Origin: Hyphomonadaceae bacterium
Lineage (GTDB): Bacteria > Pseudomonadota > Alphaproteobacteria > Caulobacterales > Aquidulcibacteraceae
Assembly: GCA_021731815.1 (NCBI GenBank)
Contig: JAKFWO010000008.1
Coordinates: forward strand, 124,001 to 188,000
Direction: 5' to 3'
DNA length: 64,000 nucleotides
Program-made: the position numbers and the translations under genes
The notes under the pieces: model-generated
The model's database searches: none
What the model saw: the letters and a program-made list of their open reading frames with translations, nothing else
Told to the model about the DNA's origin: nothing
Part shown: in pieces, positions 9,719 through 37,529 of the stretch
Position numbering within the stretch: position 1 is the stretch's first letter
Layout of the letters: each line of letters begins with the position of its first letter

Positions 9719-10549
9719 TCACGGCATGGCGCGACCGCCATCGACCAGCAGGGTCTGGCCGGTGATCATCGCCGCATTGTCCGACGCCAGAAACAAGGCC
9801 GGCCCGGCGACATCCTCACCGGTGATGGTGCGTTTGAGGCTCTGTTGGGCAAGGCATTCGGCAAGGTCTTCGGGATTGACCCATAAGTCGATCTGGCGCT
9901 TGGTCATCACCCAGCCCGGGACCAGCGCATTGACCCGGATTCCGTCGGGCCCCAATTCGCGGGCCAGCGCCCTGGTCAGCCCGAGGATCGCGGCCTTGGC
10001 GGTGACATAGGCCGGATAGCCCGAAAGACCCAAAGTCGCGGAATTGCTGCCCAGATTGATGATCGCGCCCCCGCCCAGACTGCGCATATCCGGGGCGATG
10101 GCCTGGGCCGTGAAAAAATATGGCCGGAGATTGGTCGCAATGGAATCGTCCCAGCCCTCCGGCGACAGGGAAGCGAGGCTGTGGCGGTCGTCGCGCGCGG
10201 CATTGTTGATGAGCACGCCGACCGGCCCGTAATGGGCGCGCGCGCCCTCAATCGCGCCGCGCAGGGCCTCGGGGTCGCGAATGTCGCAGGGCCGGAACCA
10301 TGGCCGCTTGAGACCCTGATCGGCAATGGCCTGCGCCAGCTTTTCGCCCTCCGGAGCCGAGAGCGACACGAAGGAGGTGCTCGCCCCCTGTTGCGCAAAG
10401 GCATGGACGAGAAAAGCCCCGATCCCCGATCCCCCACCCGTGATGAACACATGCGCGCCGCCGAGTTCGGGAAAGCGCGGATAGGATCTTTGCGAAACAC
10501 CCTCGGGTGTGCCGGTGCCCGGAGATGATGGATCCTGCTGCTGGGTCAT
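9719..10549 (-). CDS. SDR oxidoreductase, XylB-like sugar 1-dehydrogenase
   Basis: This 276-residue classical SDR has the cofactor motif TGGGSGIG, the NNAA motif, and an active site with Ser in NLGSNSA and YVTAK. The NNAARDDRH and VMTKRQ segments and the N-terminal YPRFPELGGAHVF strongly recall Caulobacter D-xylose dehydrogenase (XylB), as recalled from memory rather than by search. With alpha- and beta-galactosidases next door, oxidation of galactose at C1 (the De Ley-Doudoroff route) is the likeliest role, but xylose or arabinose remain possible. ATG 10549 is preferred because GGGGAG lies 8 bp upstream; an ATG at 10582 is the alternative. Confidence 0.7.
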   Translation of the reverse strand: MTQQQDPSSPGTGTPEGVSQRSYPRFPELGGAHVFITGGGSGIGAFLVHAFAQQGASTSFVSLSAPEGEKLAQAIADQGLKRPWFRPCDIRDPEALRGAIEGARAHYGPVGVLINNAARDDRHSLASLSPEGWDDSIATNLRPYFFTAQAIAPDMRSLGGGAIINLGSNSATLGLSGYPAYVTAKAAILGLTRALARELGPDGIRVNALVPGWVMTKRQIDLWVNPEDLAECLAQQSLKRTITGEDVAGPALFLASDNAAMITGQTLLVDGGRAMP

Positions 10550-10877
10550 GGAGGGCGCTCCCCGCCGGCTGCGGGCCTTCATGCCCGGTAATGCGTGCAG
10601 CGTGAGCGTCTTTGTCCGATGAAATCAAGAGCAGCCGGCACCCGTACATGAAATGGCCGCCGCGGGATATCGGGGCGCGGTCCCTGGAGCGCGTTCAGGC
10701 GAAAAACCGGAACCGGCAGGATCCACTGATTGAGGTCATTGGCGAAGCGGGCACAGGTTTTCAGGCGGCGCAATTGCGGTTTCTGCTGCTGGTGGTACGG
10801 CTCGCCCCGATCGGAGTGCTGTTCCTGTTATTGGGCGAGATGCGGCGGCGCGGCGCGCAAGCAGCCAAGGCGACTGG
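10550..10877. other. Gap with a partial double-hairpin element
   Basis: No credible gene is seen. Positions 10684-10710 match the left half of the second hairpin of the repeats at 35.7-36.0 kb (CTGGAGCGCGTTCAGGCGAA), but the right arm is missing. The remainder shows nothing recognisable. Confidence 0.5.
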
Positions 10878-11216
10878 TCAGCTTCCGGCGGGATGAGAGG
10901 CAGATTCGCCCCCTGCCACGGTCCCCGGCGCTTCGGGCAGCGCGTAGAATTCGTAACGGGCGGGGGTACGAAACAGGCCCTCGAGCCATTTGGCGGGGCG
11001 TGTGTCCTCGACGATCACCGCATCGGGCGACAGGCCGCGGGCCAGCAGATCGAGCCGTACCTGGCGCACGATCTCGCGCTGGGCGAGTTCGGCGCTGCCG
11101 GCCGGGACGAAAGCGGTGACATAGGCACCACCCGGATGATCCTCGCCCACCCGCGCGCCATGGGGCGATCCCGGCCGCAAGCCCCGGGCATGAACGAATA
11201 ATCGCCAGCGCGCCAT
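10878..11216 (-). CDS. Hypothetical protein, 112 aa
   Basis: This short cytoplasmic-looking protein has no signal peptide or membrane segment. A central stretch is VTAFVPAGSAELAQREIV, and near residues 75-92 lies RPAKWLEGLFRTPARYEFY, which reads as a folded domain rather than random frame. A GGGGG ribosome site lies 7 bp before the ATG. It lies 19 bp after the MaoC gene on the same strand, so it is probably the last gene of the acyl-CoA ligase and hydratase group. Family not recognised. Codon use in this frame resembles its neighbours. Confidence 0.6.
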   Translation of the reverse strand: MARWRLFVHARGLRPGSPHGARVGEDHPGGAYVTAFVPAGSAELAQREIVRQVRLDLLARGLSPDAVIVEDTRPAKWLEGLFRTPARYEFYALPEAPGTVAGGESASHPAGS

Positions 11217-11235
11217 GGTCAGCCCCCGTTTCGCA

Positions 11236-11685
11236 TCATCGGTCGAAGATCAGCGAGATCGTTTCCGCCACACATGCGGGGCGATCCATGCCCTCGATCT
11301 CGATCGTGCATTCATTGATGATTTGCAGCCCGCCCATTTTCGCTTCGGCGGCAATCAGCTTCTGGCGCAGCCGCACCCTCGAACCCGCCGGCGTCATATT
11401 GGTGAAGCGCACTTTGTTGGTGCCATAATTGATCCCGCGGACCACGCCTTCGACCGTGAGGATCTGCGCCGCCAGCATGGGAATGAGCGCAAGCGTCAGA
11501 TAGCCATGGGCGATGGTGCTGCCCAGCTCGCGCGTCGCGCGTTCCACATCGATATGGATCCATTGGTGATCGCCGGTGGTCTCGGCAAACCGGTTGATCC
11601 GGTCCTGATCGATAAGAACCCAATCTGAAACGCCGATTTCCTCGCCCACCAGACCCGGCAAATCGGCGAAAGCAATATTACGCAT
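11236..11685 (-). CDS. MaoC-family (NodN-like) enoyl-CoA hydratase
   Basis: The 149-residue hot-dog protein has the MaoC signature FAETTGDHQWIH, with the catalytic Asp and His of (R)-specific enoyl-CoA hydratases, followed by STIAHGYLTL. Such enzymes hydrate trans-2-enoyl-CoA in fatty-acid breakdown or polyester supply. ATG 11685 with GGAG 5 bp upstream is preferred over the upstream in-frame ATG at 11709. The acyl-CoA ligase gene lies 94 bp upstream on the same strand, which supports a shared acyl-CoA pathway. Confidence 0.85.
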   Translation of the reverse strand: MRNIAFADLPGLVGEEIGVSDWVLIDQDRINRFAETTGDHQWIHIDVERATRELGSTIAHGYLTLALIPMLAAQILTVEGVVRGINYGTNKVRFTNMTPAGSRVRLRQKLIAAEAKMGGLQIINECTIEIEGMDRPACVAETISLIFDR

Positions 11686-32867: not shown

Positions 32868-33201
32868 AGTGAACTTTCCCCCGAACAGGCGGCTGCGCCC
32901 GGCGGTGCTATTGGCGAATGGGTCCCGCGCAACAGCCTGCAAGAAGAGATGCAGAAAATCGCCTGACGCAGGATTTTCTTGTCACCCTGCATAAGGAGCA
33001 CAGGCTCATCTTCTGCTCCCCCTCCCCGGGCTTGCGCGGCAAGAGTGGAATTGGGAAGCGAAACCCTGGTCGAAATCGTGCCACCAATTGCGCGTTGGGG
33101 GCTTTGACTTTTGCAGCGGCTCCACATAGCCACATGCCAATTGCGCGTCATGACTGCACCGTCCGGTGCCCTGTCGTGCCGGCTGGACCCGGGAGACCAT
33201 C
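32868..33201 (+). promoter_or_regulatory. Leader region of glmS with candidate promoter and direct repeat
   Basis: A TTGACT (33104-33109) could be a -35 box for glmS, with a weak -10 (ATAGCC) about 16 bp later. A 12-bp direct repeat, CCAATTGCGCGT, flanks this site at 33084-33095 and 33137-33148. A G/C-rich stem (GGAGCA...TGCTCC near 32995-33020) is present but lacks a T-run. No gene is seen. Confidence 0.35.
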
Positions 33202-35025
33202 ATGTGCGGCATTGTGGGGATTTTGGGGCAGGCTCCGGCCGCGACGCGGATCATCGAGGCCCTCAGGCGGCTCGAATATCGCGGCTATGATTCCGCAGGG
33301 ATTGCGACCCTGGGTGCGGACGGAATCGAGCGCCGGCGCGCCGCGGGCAAGATCGCCAATCTGGCCGGGATCCTCGCATCCGAACCGCTGCCCGGAAATA
33401 CCGGCATCGGCCACACACGCTGGGCCACCCATGGCAAGCCAACCACCGATAATGCGCATCCGCACGCGACCGAAAAGGTGGCGATTGTCCATAACGGAAT
33501 TATCGAAAATTACCGGGAATTGCGCGCGCGCCTCATCGCCCGCGGCCGGAACTTCGCCTCCGATACCGACAGCGAGGTGATCGCGCATCTCATCACGGCT
33601 CATATGGAGGACGGTGCCGCCCCGATCGCCGCTGCGGAAGCCGCTATTGCCGGGCTCGAAGGAGCCTTCGCCATCGCCTGCATCTTTGCGGGGAGCGATG
33701 ATCTGATGTTTGGTGCGCGCCGCGGCAGCCCGCTGGTGGTCGGTGTCGGACAATCGGAGATGTTTCTTGGCTCGGATGCCATCGCCCTGTTCCCCTTCAC
33801 CGATCGGGTGATCTATCTCGAAGAGGGCGACAGCGTGGCGCTTGGCCGGGACAAAGTCGTCATCAAGGACAAGGCGGGACGTGAAGCTGCGCGCGCCACG
33901 GTGACCGTTCAGGGTGCGGCCGCCGCAGAAAAGGGCAATTACCGGCATTTCATGCTGAAGGAGATTCACGAACAGCCTGAAACCATCGGCCGGACCGTTG
34001 CAGCGCTGCTCGACACCGTAAACGAAAAGGTTCGCGCTCCCGAATTTCCGGATGTCCATCTTGACCGGATCGGGCAACTTGCGCTGGTGGCCTGTGGCAC
34101 GGCCCATTATGCCTGCCGGATAGCGGAATATTGGCTGGAGCAGATTGCCCGAATTCCGGTGGAATGTGATATCGCGTCTGAATTCCGCTATCGATCCCCG
34201 GTGCCGGGAACGGATTCGGCGGCGCTGTTTGTCTCGCAATCCGGCGAAACTGCCGACACACTCGCGGCATTGCGCTTTGTGCGCGAGTCCGGAATCAAGG
34301 CGATTTCGGTGCTCAATGTCCCGCAATCCTCCATGTGGCGGGAAACCGACGCAATATTACCCACCCATGCCGGGCCAGAAATCGGTGTCGCATCCACCAA
34401 GGCCTTCACCGCCCAGCTCACCGCCCTGGCCGCCTTTACGGTGGCGCTTGGCCGGGCCCATGGAACTGTCTCGCCCGAAACCGAGCGCGCGCTGTGCCAC
34501 GCTTTGATCGCGCTGCCGCGGGCGGTGGCCGAAGCGTTACGCGAGGAGCGGCATATCGCGGATCTCGCGGCCGAGCTCTCGCGCGCCAAAAGCGCCCTGT
34601 TTCTCGGGCGGGGGGCGTATTATCCGCTGGCGCTCGAGGGTGCGCTGAAGCTCAAGGAAATCACCTATATCCATGCCGAAGGCTGTGCAGCGGGCGAACT
34701 CAAGCACGGGCCAATTGCGCTTGTCGACGAGAAAATCCCCGTCATCGTTCTCGCGCCAAAGGACCATTTGTTCGAAAAGACCATGTCCAATGTCGAGGAA
34801 GTCGCCGCACGCGGGGGCCGGATCATCCTCATCTCGGATGAAGCCGGTCACGCGGCCTCGGCCGGACTGACTGCGCGGCGGATCACGATCCCCACCTGCC
34901 ATCCGCTGATCGGGCCGATCGTTGCAGCGATTCCGGTACAGCTCATCGCCTATTACACAGCCGTGCATCTGGGGACAGATGTTGACCAGCCGCGCAATCT
35001 GGCGAAATCGGTCACGGTGGAATGA
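33202..35025 (+). CDS. glmS: Glutamine-fructose-6-phosphate aminotransferase (isomerising)
   Basis: GlmS makes glucosamine 6-phosphate from fructose 6-phosphate and glutamine, the first step to UDP-GlcNAc. The ATG at 33202 places the catalytic Cys2 (MCGIVGILG) right after the initiator Met, which fixes the start; GGGAGA lies upstream. The glutaminase domain has LEYRGYDSAGIA and GHTRWATHGKPT. The two SIS domains (from about 280) have ACGTAHYA, SQSGETADTLAAL and a final LAKSVTVE ending, the conserved GlmS C-terminus. Length 607 is typical. Its last six codons and stop are duplicated directly downstream as an 18-bp repeat. Confidence 0.96.
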   Translation: MCGIVGILGQAPAATRIIEALRRLEYRGYDSAGIATLGADGIERRRAAGKIANLAGILASEPLPGNTGIGHTRWATHGKPTTDNAHPHATEKVAIVHNGIIENYRELRARLIARGRNFASDTDSEVIAHLITAHMEDGAAPIAAAEAAIAGLEGAFAIACIFAGSDDLMFGARRGSPLVVGVGQSEMFLGSDAIALFPFTDRVIYLEEGDSVALGRDKVVIKDKAGREAARATVTVQGAAAAEKGNYRHFMLKEIHEQPETIGRTVAALLDTVNEKVRAPEFPDVHLDRIGQLALVACGTAHYACRIAEYWLEQIARIPVECDIASEFRYRSPVPGTDSAALFVSQSGETADTLAALRFVRESGIKAISVLNVPQSSMWRETDAILPTHAGPEIGVASTKAFTAQLTALAAFTVALGRAHGTVSPETERALCHALIALPRAVAEALREERHIADLAAELSRAKSALFLGRGAYYPLALEGALKLKEITYIHAEGCAAGELKHGPIALVDEKIPVIVLAPKDHLFEKTMSNVEEVAARGGRIILISDEAGHAASAGLTARRITIPTCHPLIGPIVAAIPVQLIAYYTAVHLGTDVDQPRNLAKSVTVE

Positions 35026-35043
35026 TCGGTCACGGTGGAATGA
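35008..35043. repeat. Tandem duplication, 2 x 18 bp, of the end of glmS
   Basis: TCGGTCACGGTGGAATGA occurs twice without a gap. The first copy encodes the glmS C-terminus and its TGA, and the second repeats both after the stop. Confidence 0.95.
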
Positions 35044-35076: not shown

Positions 35077-35220
35077 ATCGCCCGGAGTATTTTCAACGAA
35101 ATTCGCGCCGGATTTCCCGGCCGGATTTCCTGATTGTACAGGCCCGGATCCAATAATCCGGAGCGCGCCCGGACGAAAACCGGATTGCGCTTTTCCTCAA
35201 CGCATCTTCGGCGAGCCGGA
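35077..35220. repeat. Decayed double-hairpin element downstream of glmS
   Basis: The stretch matches the 35.7-36.0 kb elements in order (GGAGTATTTTCAACGAAAT, then GGAGCGCGCCCGGACGAAAA, then TTTTCCTCAACGC) with many changes. It may still end glmS transcription. No gene is present. Confidence 0.55.
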
Positions 35221-35246: not shown

Positions 35247-35323
35247 TGGTACCGCCTCCCGGGTTTGAACCGGAGACCTCTAGATCCACAATCTAGCGCT
35301 CTAACCAGCTGAGCTAAGGCGGC
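35247..35323 (-). tRNA. tRNA-His (anticodon GTG)
   Basis: On the minus strand the acceptor arms GCCGCCT and AGGCGGT pair (one G-U), followed by A73 and an encoded CCA. The D-arm has TAGCTCAGCTGGTTAGAGC, the anticodon loop TTGTGGA carries GTG, and the T-arm is CCGG-TTCAAAC-CCGG. A73 instead of C73 is a known trait of many alphaproteobacterial His tRNAs. Confidence 0.96.
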
Positions 35324-35709
35324 CAACGCCAACGGGCCAATTCGCCATCAAAACCGGACCTGATCTGCATCCCGTGGCAAACGCGGTCTGCCCGCCAGAA
35401 TGATGTTCCGCCGATCGATTGCGGGATATGTCCATCCGGGTCCGCCGCCGTTCTCGCGCGATCAGCCGTGACGGTCAACCCCGCTGCGCACGCAATTCGC
35501 CGTTGCTACCCCTGACGGGAGAGCGCCGACCGCCCACCGGGCCCGGAATCGGCCGCATGCGATCCAATGCGACGAGCAATGCCACGATGCGCCATGTTTT
35601 CGGGCACGCCATGTCATCCTGGAGCAGTTTCAAAGAAATTCGGGCCGGATCTCCAAATTGAACAGCCGCGGATTCTGTCATTCGGCCCGGATTCTGTTGA
35701 CGATGCCCT
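35324..35709. other. Gap with a further decayed repeat copy
   Basis: No gene is seen. Positions 35620-35709 carry a decayed copy of the following element (CTGGAGCAGTTTCAAAGAAA with a poor right arm). The rest shows nothing recognisable. Confidence 0.5.
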
Positions 35710-36047
35710 GGAGCATTTTCAAGGAAATCCGCGCCGAAAGTCTGAATTGAAAATGCTCGAATTCAATGATCTGGAGCGCGTTCAGGCGAAAAATCGGATT
35801 CCACTTTTTCTGAACGCGCTCCGGAGCATTTTCAAGGAAATCCGCGCCGAAAGTCTGAATTGAAAATGCCCGGATTCAATGATTCAGAGCGCGTTCAGGC
35901 GAAAAATCGGATTCCACTTTTTCTGAACGCGCTCCGGAGCATTTTCAAGGAAGACCGAGCCGAATGTCTGAATTGAAAATGCCCGGATTCAATGATTCAG
36001 AGCGCGTTCAGGCGAAAAACCGGATTCCACTTTTTCTGAACGCGCCC
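35710..36047. repeat. Three tandem double-hairpin elements (about 113 bp each, RIME-like)
   Basis: Three copies lie head to tail at 35710-35822, 35823-35935 and 35936-36047. Each holds hairpin A (GAGCATTTTCAA...TTGAAAATGCTC) and hairpin B (GAGCGCGTTCAG...CTGAACGCGCTC). Copy 1 has perfect arms; in copies 2 and 3 hairpin A ends in GCCC. This two-palindrome plan recalls the RIME intergenic mosaic elements of rhizobia. The third copy touches the stop codon of the convergent SDR gene, so it may act as its terminator. Confidence 0.9.
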
Positions 36048-36754
36048 TAGCCCCGGCCGGTGACGGGAATGGAAGCCCCCGTCACCGCGCCGCCGGCTTC
36101 CGACAAAAGAAAGGCGATCACGGCCGCGATCTCGCCCGGCTTCACCCAGGTCGTAAAATCGGCATCCGCATTGGCGCTGCGATTTTGCGGCGTATCGATG
36201 GTGCCGGGCATGACGGTATTGCAGGTAATACCGGCCGCCTTGTTTTCCTCGGACACCGCCTCGGCAATCCGCATGACGGCGGCCTTGGAGGCCGAATAGA
36301 CGCTGGCGCTGGCGAAAGCGCGTTTGCCGGCCCCCGCCGCGACATGCACGATACGCCCATAGCCGGCCTTGCGCATCACGGGCAGAGCGGCCTCACTCAG
36401 CCGCAAGGCGGACAAGGCGTTGAGGTCCATGAGAAAGGCCCAGTCATCAGAGGCCAGCTCGGTGGCGTGCTTCACCCTGAACGTGCCGACGGTGTTGGCG
36501 AGGCCATCAATGCGTCCGAAGCGTTCCATGGCCTCAGCCATGATCCGCTCGCAGCCTTCGCGGGTGCGGACATCGGCCCCGGCGATTTGCAGATTGGTAA
36601 CGCCGAGCGCGGTGCCCAGCTCCTCAAGCGCCGGGGCCCGCGTATCGGCCAGCACGAGATTGGCACCGAGCTTTGCCAGATGCGCGCTGATGGCCGCGCC
36701 GAGATTGCCCGCGGCTCCGGTCACGATAATGGTTCGCTTCTTGAAATCACGCAC
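36047..36754 (-). CDS. SDR family oxidoreductase
   Basis: This 235-residue SDR has the cofactor site VTGAAGNLGAAI, an altered NNAG motif (here ANTVGTF), and an active site with AAGAGKR in place of the usual Ser region and YSASK with Tyr and Lys. The end (GGAVTGASIPVTGRG) is typical. The missing catalytic Ser equivalent may be filled by a shifted residue, so activity is uncertain. The start is GTG 36754 with GGAG 7 bp upstream; a longer in-frame start at 36829 would overlap the next gene. The stop codon lies against the hairpin repeats. It may be the last gene of the Rieske operon, 22 bp away. Confidence 0.8.
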   Translation of the reverse strand: MRDFKKRTIIVTGAAGNLGAAISAHLAKLGANLVLADTRAPALEELGTALGVTNLQIAGADVRTREGCERIMAEAMERFGRIDGLANTVGTFRVKHATELASDDWAFLMDLNALSALRLSEAALPVMRKAGYGRIVHVAAGAGKRAFASASVYSASKAAVMRIAEAVSEENKAAGITCNTVMPGTIDTPQNRSANADADFTTWVKPGEIAAVIAFLLSEAGGAVTGASIPVTGRG

Positions 36755-36776
36755 GATACTGCTCCGGAAAACCTGC

Positions 36777-37529
36777 TCAGACACGATGAATATCCGGCCG
36801 CGCCACCCGGAATTGCACGACATCGCCAACCCGGACCATCCGGCCTTTGGCCATCACCCGGTCGGCAATGAAGGGCAGGATGTCGCGGCCATGCCGGCGG
36901 CCATCGGCGTCCAGAAAAAGTGGCGCGTCCACGCCCGATCCGCAGGAACCGGTCTGGCAAAAGGCCAGTGGCAGGCCGCCTTTGGCGCAGAGCGTGGCAC
37001 AGGCCTTGTGCGTCTTGCCATAGCCCGGGCGCATGGCCCCAAACCAGCATTTGGCGTCGAGGATTTCACCGACGAGATGGGCGGCGCCCAGATCCTCCTC
37101 CGGCCAGTCGCGCAGGCCCGGGGGCTCGATGCCTTCCGACGCGCCAAGCCAGTGCCCGTCATCCACCGCAATCATCCGGTTTTCACCACGGGAAATGAGA
37201 CTGCCGCGCACCTTGACCCAGCCCCGGGCATTGGCGGCCAGCCGAACTGCCAGCTTGCCGGTCGTGGCGAGAAAGGCGGTTTGCGGGGCACCATCGTCGC
37301 CGATCATGCGCAGCATTGGCCATGGTGTTTGCACGAGCAGGCCGGAATGCCCGGCAATGGCCGACTGGTCCCAGATGCCCGGTCCCGGGGGCTGGCCCTG
37401 CCGGCCCAGAAAAGCCGCCACGCCGCCGCCGCCGGCCATGAGGCCAAAAGTCGCGAGCAGCAGAAAGCGCCGGTCGATTTTGTGAAGATCGGGGCTCCAG
37501 CCGATGAAAAACGGGTCGTCAGACATCAC
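36777..37529 (-). CDS. Cysteine-containing membrane-anchored protein of unknown function
   Basis: The 250-residue protein has one TM helix near 20-42 (RRFLLLATFGLMAGGGGVAA) and a large, probably periplasmic, domain. The domain has five cysteines at 161, 177, 181, 191 and 196 in GEILDAKCWFGAMRPG, KACATLCAKGG and AFCQTGSCGSG. The spacing suggests metal or cofactor binding, or disulfides, but the family is not known to me. It overlaps the Rieske gene by 11 bp, so it probably works with that membrane redox protein. The start is ATG 37529 with a second ATG following. Confidence 0.7.
   Translation of the reverse strand: MMSDDPFFIGWSPDLHKIDRRFLLLATFGLMAGGGGVAAFLGRQGQPPGPGIWDQSAIAGHSGLLVQTPWPMLRMIGDDGAPQTAFLATTGKLAVRLAANARGWVKVRGSLISRGENRMIAVDDGHWLGASEGIEPPGLRDWPEEDLGAAHLVGEILDAKCWFGAMRPGYGKTHKACATLCAKGGLPLAFCQTGSCGSGVDAPLFLDADGRRHGRDILPFIADRVMAKGRMVRVGDVVQFRVARPDIHRV

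Follow-up and report, generated by a model that had tools for sequence, protein, structure and literature searches.

The window, the 64-kb stretch of Hyphomonadaceae DNA analyzed here, carries a head-to-tail array of three repeats between two genes. On its left lie a convergent neighbor, a GlmS-like gene with GATase and SIS domains (33166–35025, + strand), and tRNA-His(GTG) (35247–35323, − strand), which is a neighbor only. On its right, an SDR-family (FabG-like) gene (36047–36784, − strand) ends exactly at the array, and its C-terminus reaches the end of the family models. TRF reports a period of 113 with 3.0 copies and 95% matches (35710–36045); the units occupy 35711–35821, 35824–35934, and 35937–36047, all on the + strand. 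Copy 1, recognized by TRF, folding, and a covariance model, has a core running GAGC...GCTC with hairpin A on the left and hairpin B on the right. Copy 2 is 95.5% identical to copy 1 and scores 134.8 bits with the covariance model, and copy 3 shares 90.1% identity with copy 1 and 94.6% with copy 2. The right end of copy 3 runs into a CTAG (36047–36050), which provides the SDR gene with its TAG stop; the whole window holds just four CTAG tetranucleotides.

Two decayed copies lie upstream on the + strand, at 35083–35209 (covariance model 36.9 bits, E = 3.1e-8) and 35620–35689 (27 bits, E = 1.4e-5). TRF and the folds bear out the three head-to-tail 113-bp double-hairpin units of the initial annotation; the covariance model supports both of its decayed copies, the first of which it had drawn slightly too wide (35077–35220). 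An Rfam scan of the window gave the element no family match above gathering score and found only two tRNAs and a terC RNA (RF03067; 43836–43900, − strand, 52 bits). As a separate observation, an exact 18-bp tandem duplication (35007–35043) covers the end of the GlmS-like gene, from its last codons through the stop.

Each array core is 111 bp long, begins with GAGCATTTTC, and closes with GCGCTC or a variant; a CG dinucleotide serves as spacer between neighboring cores, giving the 113-bp period. All three copies follow one plan: hairpin A, a linker, and hairpin B. RNA and DNA folds of copy 1 place hairpin A at 35711–35758 (GAGCATTTTCAA ... TTGAAAATGCTC) and hairpin B at 35773–35822, the latter with a 3-nt 5′ bulge, a 2x2 internal loop, and a triloop, both on the + strand. 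The apex motif of hairpin B stands at 35790–35808 in copy 1 (AAAATCGGATTCCACTTTT, one mismatch), 35903–35921 in copy 2 (one mismatch), and 36016–36034 in copy 3, where it is an exact AAAACCGG-ATT-CCACTTTT and the loop, GATTC, is a GANTC site (all + strand). Against dinucleotide shuffles, RNA folds of the three units gave z-scores of −3.74, −2.71, and −3.63 on the + strand and −5.35, −3.42, and −5.04 on the − strand, with 0 to 3 per 200 shuffles folding as well as the units; DNA folds of copy 1 gave z = −4.54 and −4.71.

The same element recurs across the 2.53-Mb genome. A covariance model built from 20 copies, two window units among them, returned at least 55 matches (113–115 nt) at ≥100 bits and at least 79 at ≥60 bits, both lower bounds from the 150 of 2260 candidates scored; BLAST against the same genome gave at least 49 near-full-length matches (40 of 91 candidates scored). 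The initial annotation had held that an absence of further copies would make the array a local duplication only. Because at least 55 strong matches lie across the genome, the array is more than that, and the genome-wide copies and folds bear out a RIME-like element that is dispersed and has two hairpins. Tandem arrays, thought less usual than single copies, are not exceptional here: they occur at seven or eight sites, with three copies each on contigs C1 (the window array), C29, and C30 and two each on C25, C10, C19, and C12; on C6 a single copy precedes a decayed one. The reported clustering around tRNA-His is true in the window and is no family trait: a tRNA lies within 600 nt at 3 of 45 element sites, two of which flank the window tRNA-His, and that neighborhood of the array is incidental.

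Mean identity is 0.950 within arrays (12 pairs) vs. 0.911 among other copies (1164 pairs), and this greater average likeness suggests that arrays grew by tandem duplication. Seven of the 12 array pairs are closer to each other than to the best copy elsewhere, one (C19) is a tie, and four (window copies 1 and 3, two C30 pairs, and C10) are not closer. Of 60 relatives, only G001, from one other genus of this bacterial family, is rich in full-length copies (15 matches, up to 77% identity); five further relatives show short element matches only.

Placement was scored at 45 sites (arrays merged) and then at 25 held-out sites found by the covariance model only, 70 in total; gene calls come from a home-made codon-score finder, whose starts are unreliable and whose stops are ORF ends. 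Overlap with a called gene exceeds 40 nt at none of the sites (0/70). Neighboring genes are convergent at 29 sites, tandem at 33, divergent at 4, and unclassified at 4 (18, 23, 3, and 1 in the first set; 11, 10, 1, and 3 in the held-out set).

The junction with the neighboring gene is often exact to the base. Docking directly on a stop codon, a pattern noticed in the first 45 sites and then tested on the 25 others, was found at 15/45 and 7/25 sites, respectively (22/70 in total). All 22 docked stop codons are TAG, their TA lying in the flank and their G opening the core. Over every gene at the 70 loci, docked genes included, the stop-codon tally is TGA 280, TAG 100, and TAA 59 (Fisher 4e-14; first 45 loci, TGA 198, TAG 76, TAA 37; held-out 25, TGA 82, TAG 24, TAA 22). 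Docked ends comprise 12 A and 10 B ends, with strands read by eye, so the elements have no orientation preference. At three further sites a TAG stop stands at offsets −5 to −7, in a variant end TAGATGT. Three copies (L060, L081, and L086) have in common a variant B end, CTAGATGTGAGC, with the TAG stop displaced 3–5 nt outward, and possibly form a subfamily.

The element ends have CTAG as their consensus. At 34 single-copy sites, left ends include CCAG 9, CTAG 8, and CTGG 7 and right ends CTGG 9, CTAG 7, and CCAG 7; TA is found at 12/34 left and 10/34 right termini, the others being mostly CA or TG. At the 48 of 70 sites where docking on a stop codon is not exact, CCAG and CTGG make up most of the ends; each is one transition from CTAG and would be a decayed form of it. 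Outside elements, 443 kb contain 43 CTAG: 14 at stop codons, 20 intergenic, and 9 coding. The stop-codon share predicted by target is 6.8% for noncoding TA, 15.5% for YTAR, and 41% for CTAG. Tested against these values, the observed 22/70 gave P = 7e-10 for TA and P = 6e-4 for YTAR and was compatible with CTAG (upper tail 0.96, lower tail 0.06). The held-out 25 alone gave 0.001, 0.08, and 0.94 in the same tests, and by their 0.08 vs. 0.94 cannot by themselves separate YTAR from CTAG. From these sequence patterns we infer both movement and target: the family apparently targets CTAG, a rare sequence. The outer dinucleotides of the two ends show no target-site duplication, being alike in 8/34 copies, which is at chance level (shuffle mean 7.8), and no pair of close strains with one occupied and one empty site was found.

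The reading we prefer, at a probability of roughly 0.7, is a CTAG-targeted nonautonomous mobile element of the CIR/RIME kind that can enter stop codons harmlessly. In outline, two hairpins between CTAG-type ends would form a unit that is mobilized in trans and whose new copies would insert into CTAG sites. Because CTAG is very rare and a large share of noncoding CTAG are TAG stops, insertions would often land on stop codons; the element end supplies the G of TAG, so the protein would be unchanged and such insertions would survive. The window array would probably go back to a single insertion on the SDR gene's TAG, which tandem duplication then expanded to three copies. Exact TAG docking would thereby allow dozens of copies without gene damage.

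Docked genes are full length where this can be tested. A C-terminus scan covered the 15 docked proteins of the first set, and seven reach the family-model end: TldD 481/481, Zwf 485/486, MucR/Ros 123/123, SDR 229/231, LoiP 246/247, DUF2147 112/112, and YGGT 69/70. TipF reaches 407/421 of its model, and the models are silent on the last residues of the LapA-like, TetR, FtsA-like, HAD, Patatin, S41 peptidase, and VirB4-like proteins. For tldD, all 37 of 37 genomes searched aligned to residue 484–486 of 486; the stop lies at residue 486 here and at 484–487 in 29 relatives (30 loci read), whose tldD stops are without an element of the 113-bp family in a search with its own-family model only. In three of those 29 relatives, tldD ends in CTAG. 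Gene truncation by the element was considered and is unsupported where testable, since seven proteins reach their model ends and the tldD stop is as in relatives.

An inserted array would place a strong hairpin directly behind a stop codon, where it may act on the mRNA 3′ end. REPs ≤15 nt from a stop codon stall ribosomes in Escherichia coli, according to work cited in PMC5082802. By analogy, such hairpins may affect the docked gene, since their base begins right at its stop codon; at zero distance, the hairpins could affect termination and mRNA decay of zwf, tldD, the ftsA-like gene, and mucR. This raises the alternative that the elements are kept as 3′-end devices, as terminators or mRNA stabilizers, with selection rather than insertion specificity setting their position. 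Most of the strong hairpins do lie at the 3′ ends of genes (convergent sites 29, tandem 33, divergent 4), hairpin B keeps its pairing while its stems change, and at two loci (L106 and L126) a single element meets the TAG of one convergent gene at each of its ends. Selection for nearby hairpins, however, leaves a base-exact junction that is always TAG unexplained, and 48/70 sites are off stop codons. A terminator pattern scan for a G+C-rich hairpin followed by a T run found none within the array and one outside it, with 2.2 expected in the region. Without a terminator-like site in the array and with no preferred orientation (12 A, 10 B), intrinsic termination, which the chain of hairpins had earlier been proposed to bring about, is not supported, and we consider a 3′-end device improbable as the explanation of element position. 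Insertion into CTAG remains the preferred account of the exact TAG junctions.

Hairpin B is the conserved part of the element. Across 37 elements, a set chosen by apex, it has 16 pairs, 10 of them with two-sided changes, and 92.1% of cells are paired; slid controls for the same elements also show 7–8 two-sided changes, at 50–55% of cells paired, which makes the paired-cell percentage the telling measure. A joint fold of 60 copies from this genome and G001 gave hairpin B 11 pairs, 6 of them two-sided (93.8% vs. 34–45%); hairpin A was not recovered in that joint consensus fold. The apex AAAACCGG-N3-CCACTTTT occurs in 14 of 289 genomes of the class, with 55 sites in this genome and 62 in the 13 others together, and its reversed-pattern control has 1 site across the 289. 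When four inner positions are each allowed two letters (16 combinations), the relaxed apex has 86 sites in 22 other genomes, vs. 10 for the reversed control. Although it accounts for 2 of the 16 combinations (strands merged), the mismatch form makes up 62/86 relaxed sites, so the C.C/C.A apex mismatch is kept and not repaired to pairing; among the matches listed, five relaxed sites are fully Watson–Crick paired and one more is paired via G.T. A search of the open literature with the apex letters returned nothing but unrelated matches.

The apex frequently encloses a methylation-type site. GANTC lies in the hairpin B loop of 40/49 copies in this genome and in the linker of 45/49, and the window array has seven GANTC (CcrM-type) sites between 35797 and 36027 (starts 35797, 35873, 35881, 35910, 35986, 35994, and 36023) vs. 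0.8 expected. On these counts the array might be read as a mere cluster of CcrM-methylation sites kept for cell-cycle regulation. That reading is very improbable: in six other genomes (G069, G112, G175, G247, G260, and G340), the loop has GANTC in 0/32 apices among the matches listed. Since the apex persists there without it, GANTC is not the shared core. In G182 and G285, GANTC is present in 13/21 apices among the matches listed. The GANTC-independent apex suggests recognition by some factor besides CcrM, and it offers a bait for finding the protein involved.

The 23-base form of the apex, GAAAAACCGGATTCCACTTTTTC, also occurs in other lineages. Named records among the matches listed are from Methylobacterium, Methylocystis, Methylocapsa, Martelella, Rhizobium, Allorhizobium, Agrobacterium, Parvularculaceae, and a Novosphingobium MAG, and 10 plasmid records match a Rhizobium lemnae element query. 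By eye, hairpin A stands upstream of the apex at many printed loci (e.g., L104, L106, L120, L128, L157, and L168), and none was seen within 75 nt at L110, L132, L140, L141, L153, and L163. Some Rhizobiaceae loci with the common apex (L117, L157, L168, and L181) show two hairpins by eye. The stems of hairpin B vary by lineage; the bulge, the 2x2 mismatch, and the apex shape recur across lineages.

Docking was read in these lineages at loci with the exact 23-base motif (77/80 used, leaving out L132, L151, and L176), with A ends assigned by eye and counts that are not phylogenetically independent. Among the matches listed, a Methylobacterium MAG (M007) has 18/45 docked sites (17 TAG, 1 TAA) on a stop-codon background of TGA 177, TAG 49, and TAA 32. 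None of its 45 sites overlaps a gene, the layout is 15 convergent, 19 tandem, 3 divergent, and 8 unclassified, and 31/45 B ends carry CTAG. The other counts, also among the matches listed, are 5/12 in a Parvularculaceae-type group, 7/12 in a Methylocystis/Methylocapsa-type group—both including MAGs titled only Alphaproteobacteria—and 4/9 in Rhizobiaceae, where a fifth site, one base off a TAA, is excluded; two further MAG groups gave 0/6 among the matches listed. Exact TAG docking recurs in several lineages, which suggests a defined rule for the target: CTAG.

Two routes of mobilization have to be weighed. In the first, an IS630- or IS5-type transposase would mobilize the element as its MITE, with TA or CTAG as the insertion site and duplication on insertion. 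The ends fit this route in that IS630, by the 1991 work of Tenzen and Ohtsubo, is said to prefer the TA in CTAG. They also fit MITEPsy1 of Pseudomonas syringae, a 100-bp nonautonomous element that inserts after CTAG or YTAA and is suggested to be of IS5 type (PMC3189936), and Brucella IS711, which duplicates the TA of YTAR (PMC2267715, PMC2266754). MITEPsy1 differs from the 113-bp family in its 18-bp terminal inverted repeats resembling ISPsy2 and its gammaproteobacterial host, and the parts of PMC3189936 drawn on here describe no two-hairpin plan. DDE_3/IS630 transposase, however, has 0 matches in this genome and is found in 3/14 apex-bearing genomes (79/289 overall), and the outer dinucleotides do not show the duplication that this route entails (8/34 vs. 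7.8). We regard the MITE route as possible, with the odds leaning against it.

The second route is that of a single-stranded DNA-type element: a RAYT-like Y1/HUH transposase would recognize the apex of the hairpin and carry out joining beside CTAG. Hairpins near both ends, the recurring bulge, 2x2 mismatch, and apex of hairpin B, the tetranucleotide-like ends with no detectable duplication, and the one Y1_Tnp gene in the genome all speak for it. Yet that single gene, RAYT-like and located near 10834–11049 of contig C36 (locus L091, ~9800–11400), sits amid GC-rich palindromes of a different family (GGAGCGGCGGCGCC...GGCGCCGCCGCTCC), with which it has the look of an independent REPtron. A search of 20,000 of the 21,074 bases of its contig gave no 113-bp element, and Y1_Tnp occurs in just 5/14 apex-bearing genomes vs. 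59/289 overall. The likeness to REP/REPIN systems with RAYT, in dispersed extragenic hairpins near gene 3′ ends, is likewise offset by an element longer than 100 bp, by CTAG-type ends, and by a RAYT-like gene amid another repeat family. The HUH route is rather unlikely, less favored than the MITE route. As a resident mobilizer, Y1_Tnp and DDE_3 were both rejected, neither family tracking the apex motif.

Our preferred reading, a CTAG-targeted nonautonomous element, places the repeats within an already known type of element rather than making them a local oddity; TAG docking and the GANTC-independent apex are the less expected parts. Two described families come closest: RIME, the Rhizobium-specific intergenic mosaic elements reportedly described by Osteras in 1995, and CIR, the CcrM-associated intergenic repeats said to go back to Chen and Shapiro in 2003. 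Compared with RIME by description rather than by sequence, the 113-bp family is likewise intergenic, repeated, and alphaproteobacterial; no element copy was found in bases 1–50000 of S. meliloti pSymB. CIR, as characterized in part of a 2007 review, are ~110 bp long, with two inverted-repeat arms and a linker, GANTC in the terminal loop, and TA termini; they are alphaproteobacterial and absent from gene interiors, and their mobility and target duplication were left open (Delihas 2007, PMC2229807). The 113-bp family shares with that description the 111-bp core, two hairpins with a linker, loop GANTC (40/49), intergenic placement (0/70), and an alphaproteobacterial host; TA termini are shared as well, with consensus CTAG here, yet in a minority of copies (12/34 and 10/34). 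It differs from what is described there in its head-to-tail arrays, in CTAG ends on TAG stops, and in an apex that is longer than GANTC and outlives it. By anatomy, the family is of the CIR kind, the most specific match among the sources as excerpted, and one made by description, not by sequence. It also resembles, again by description, Bru-RS of Brucella, 103- to 105-bp palindromic intergenic repeats in an alphaproteobacterium that are possible IS711 insertion hot spots (PMC2267715, PMC2266754).

Searches of the open-access literature turned up no mention of docking on stop codons, a scope beyond which the 2003 CIR and 1995 RIME papers lie; the former may already note TAG docking. If the preferred reading is true, the family embodies a stop-codon-neutral insertion strategy, one absent from the excerpts of literature descriptions examined. 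More tentatively, at a little short of even odds, RIME, CIR, and the 113-bp repeats would be lineage forms of one ancient alphaproteobacterial mobile-element superfamily. Its constrained parts would be the apex AAAACCGG-N3-CCACTTTT with its C.C/C.A mismatch, read by a putative protein, and CTAG ends that make TAG stops a safe harbor.

Other repeats lie in the same genome. The apex is present at C1:61163 (locus L093), C1:66692, and, with one base changed, C1:20785, apparently outside the 113-bp family; at L093 it is flanked by GCATCGC/GCGATGC arms, and such sites suggest further element families in the genome. A flank common to L068, L084, L085, and L088 was considered as a gene family and rejected; it looks like a second repeat of ~330 bp with inverted ends (TTTCAACAGGTTGT / ACAACCTGTTGAA) and CTAG-like bounds, which adjoins the 113-bp element. 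Copies of this repeat lie at L084:5181–5520, L085:5124–5456, and L068:4745–5017, and its end motif occurs nine times in the genome with at most one mismatch.
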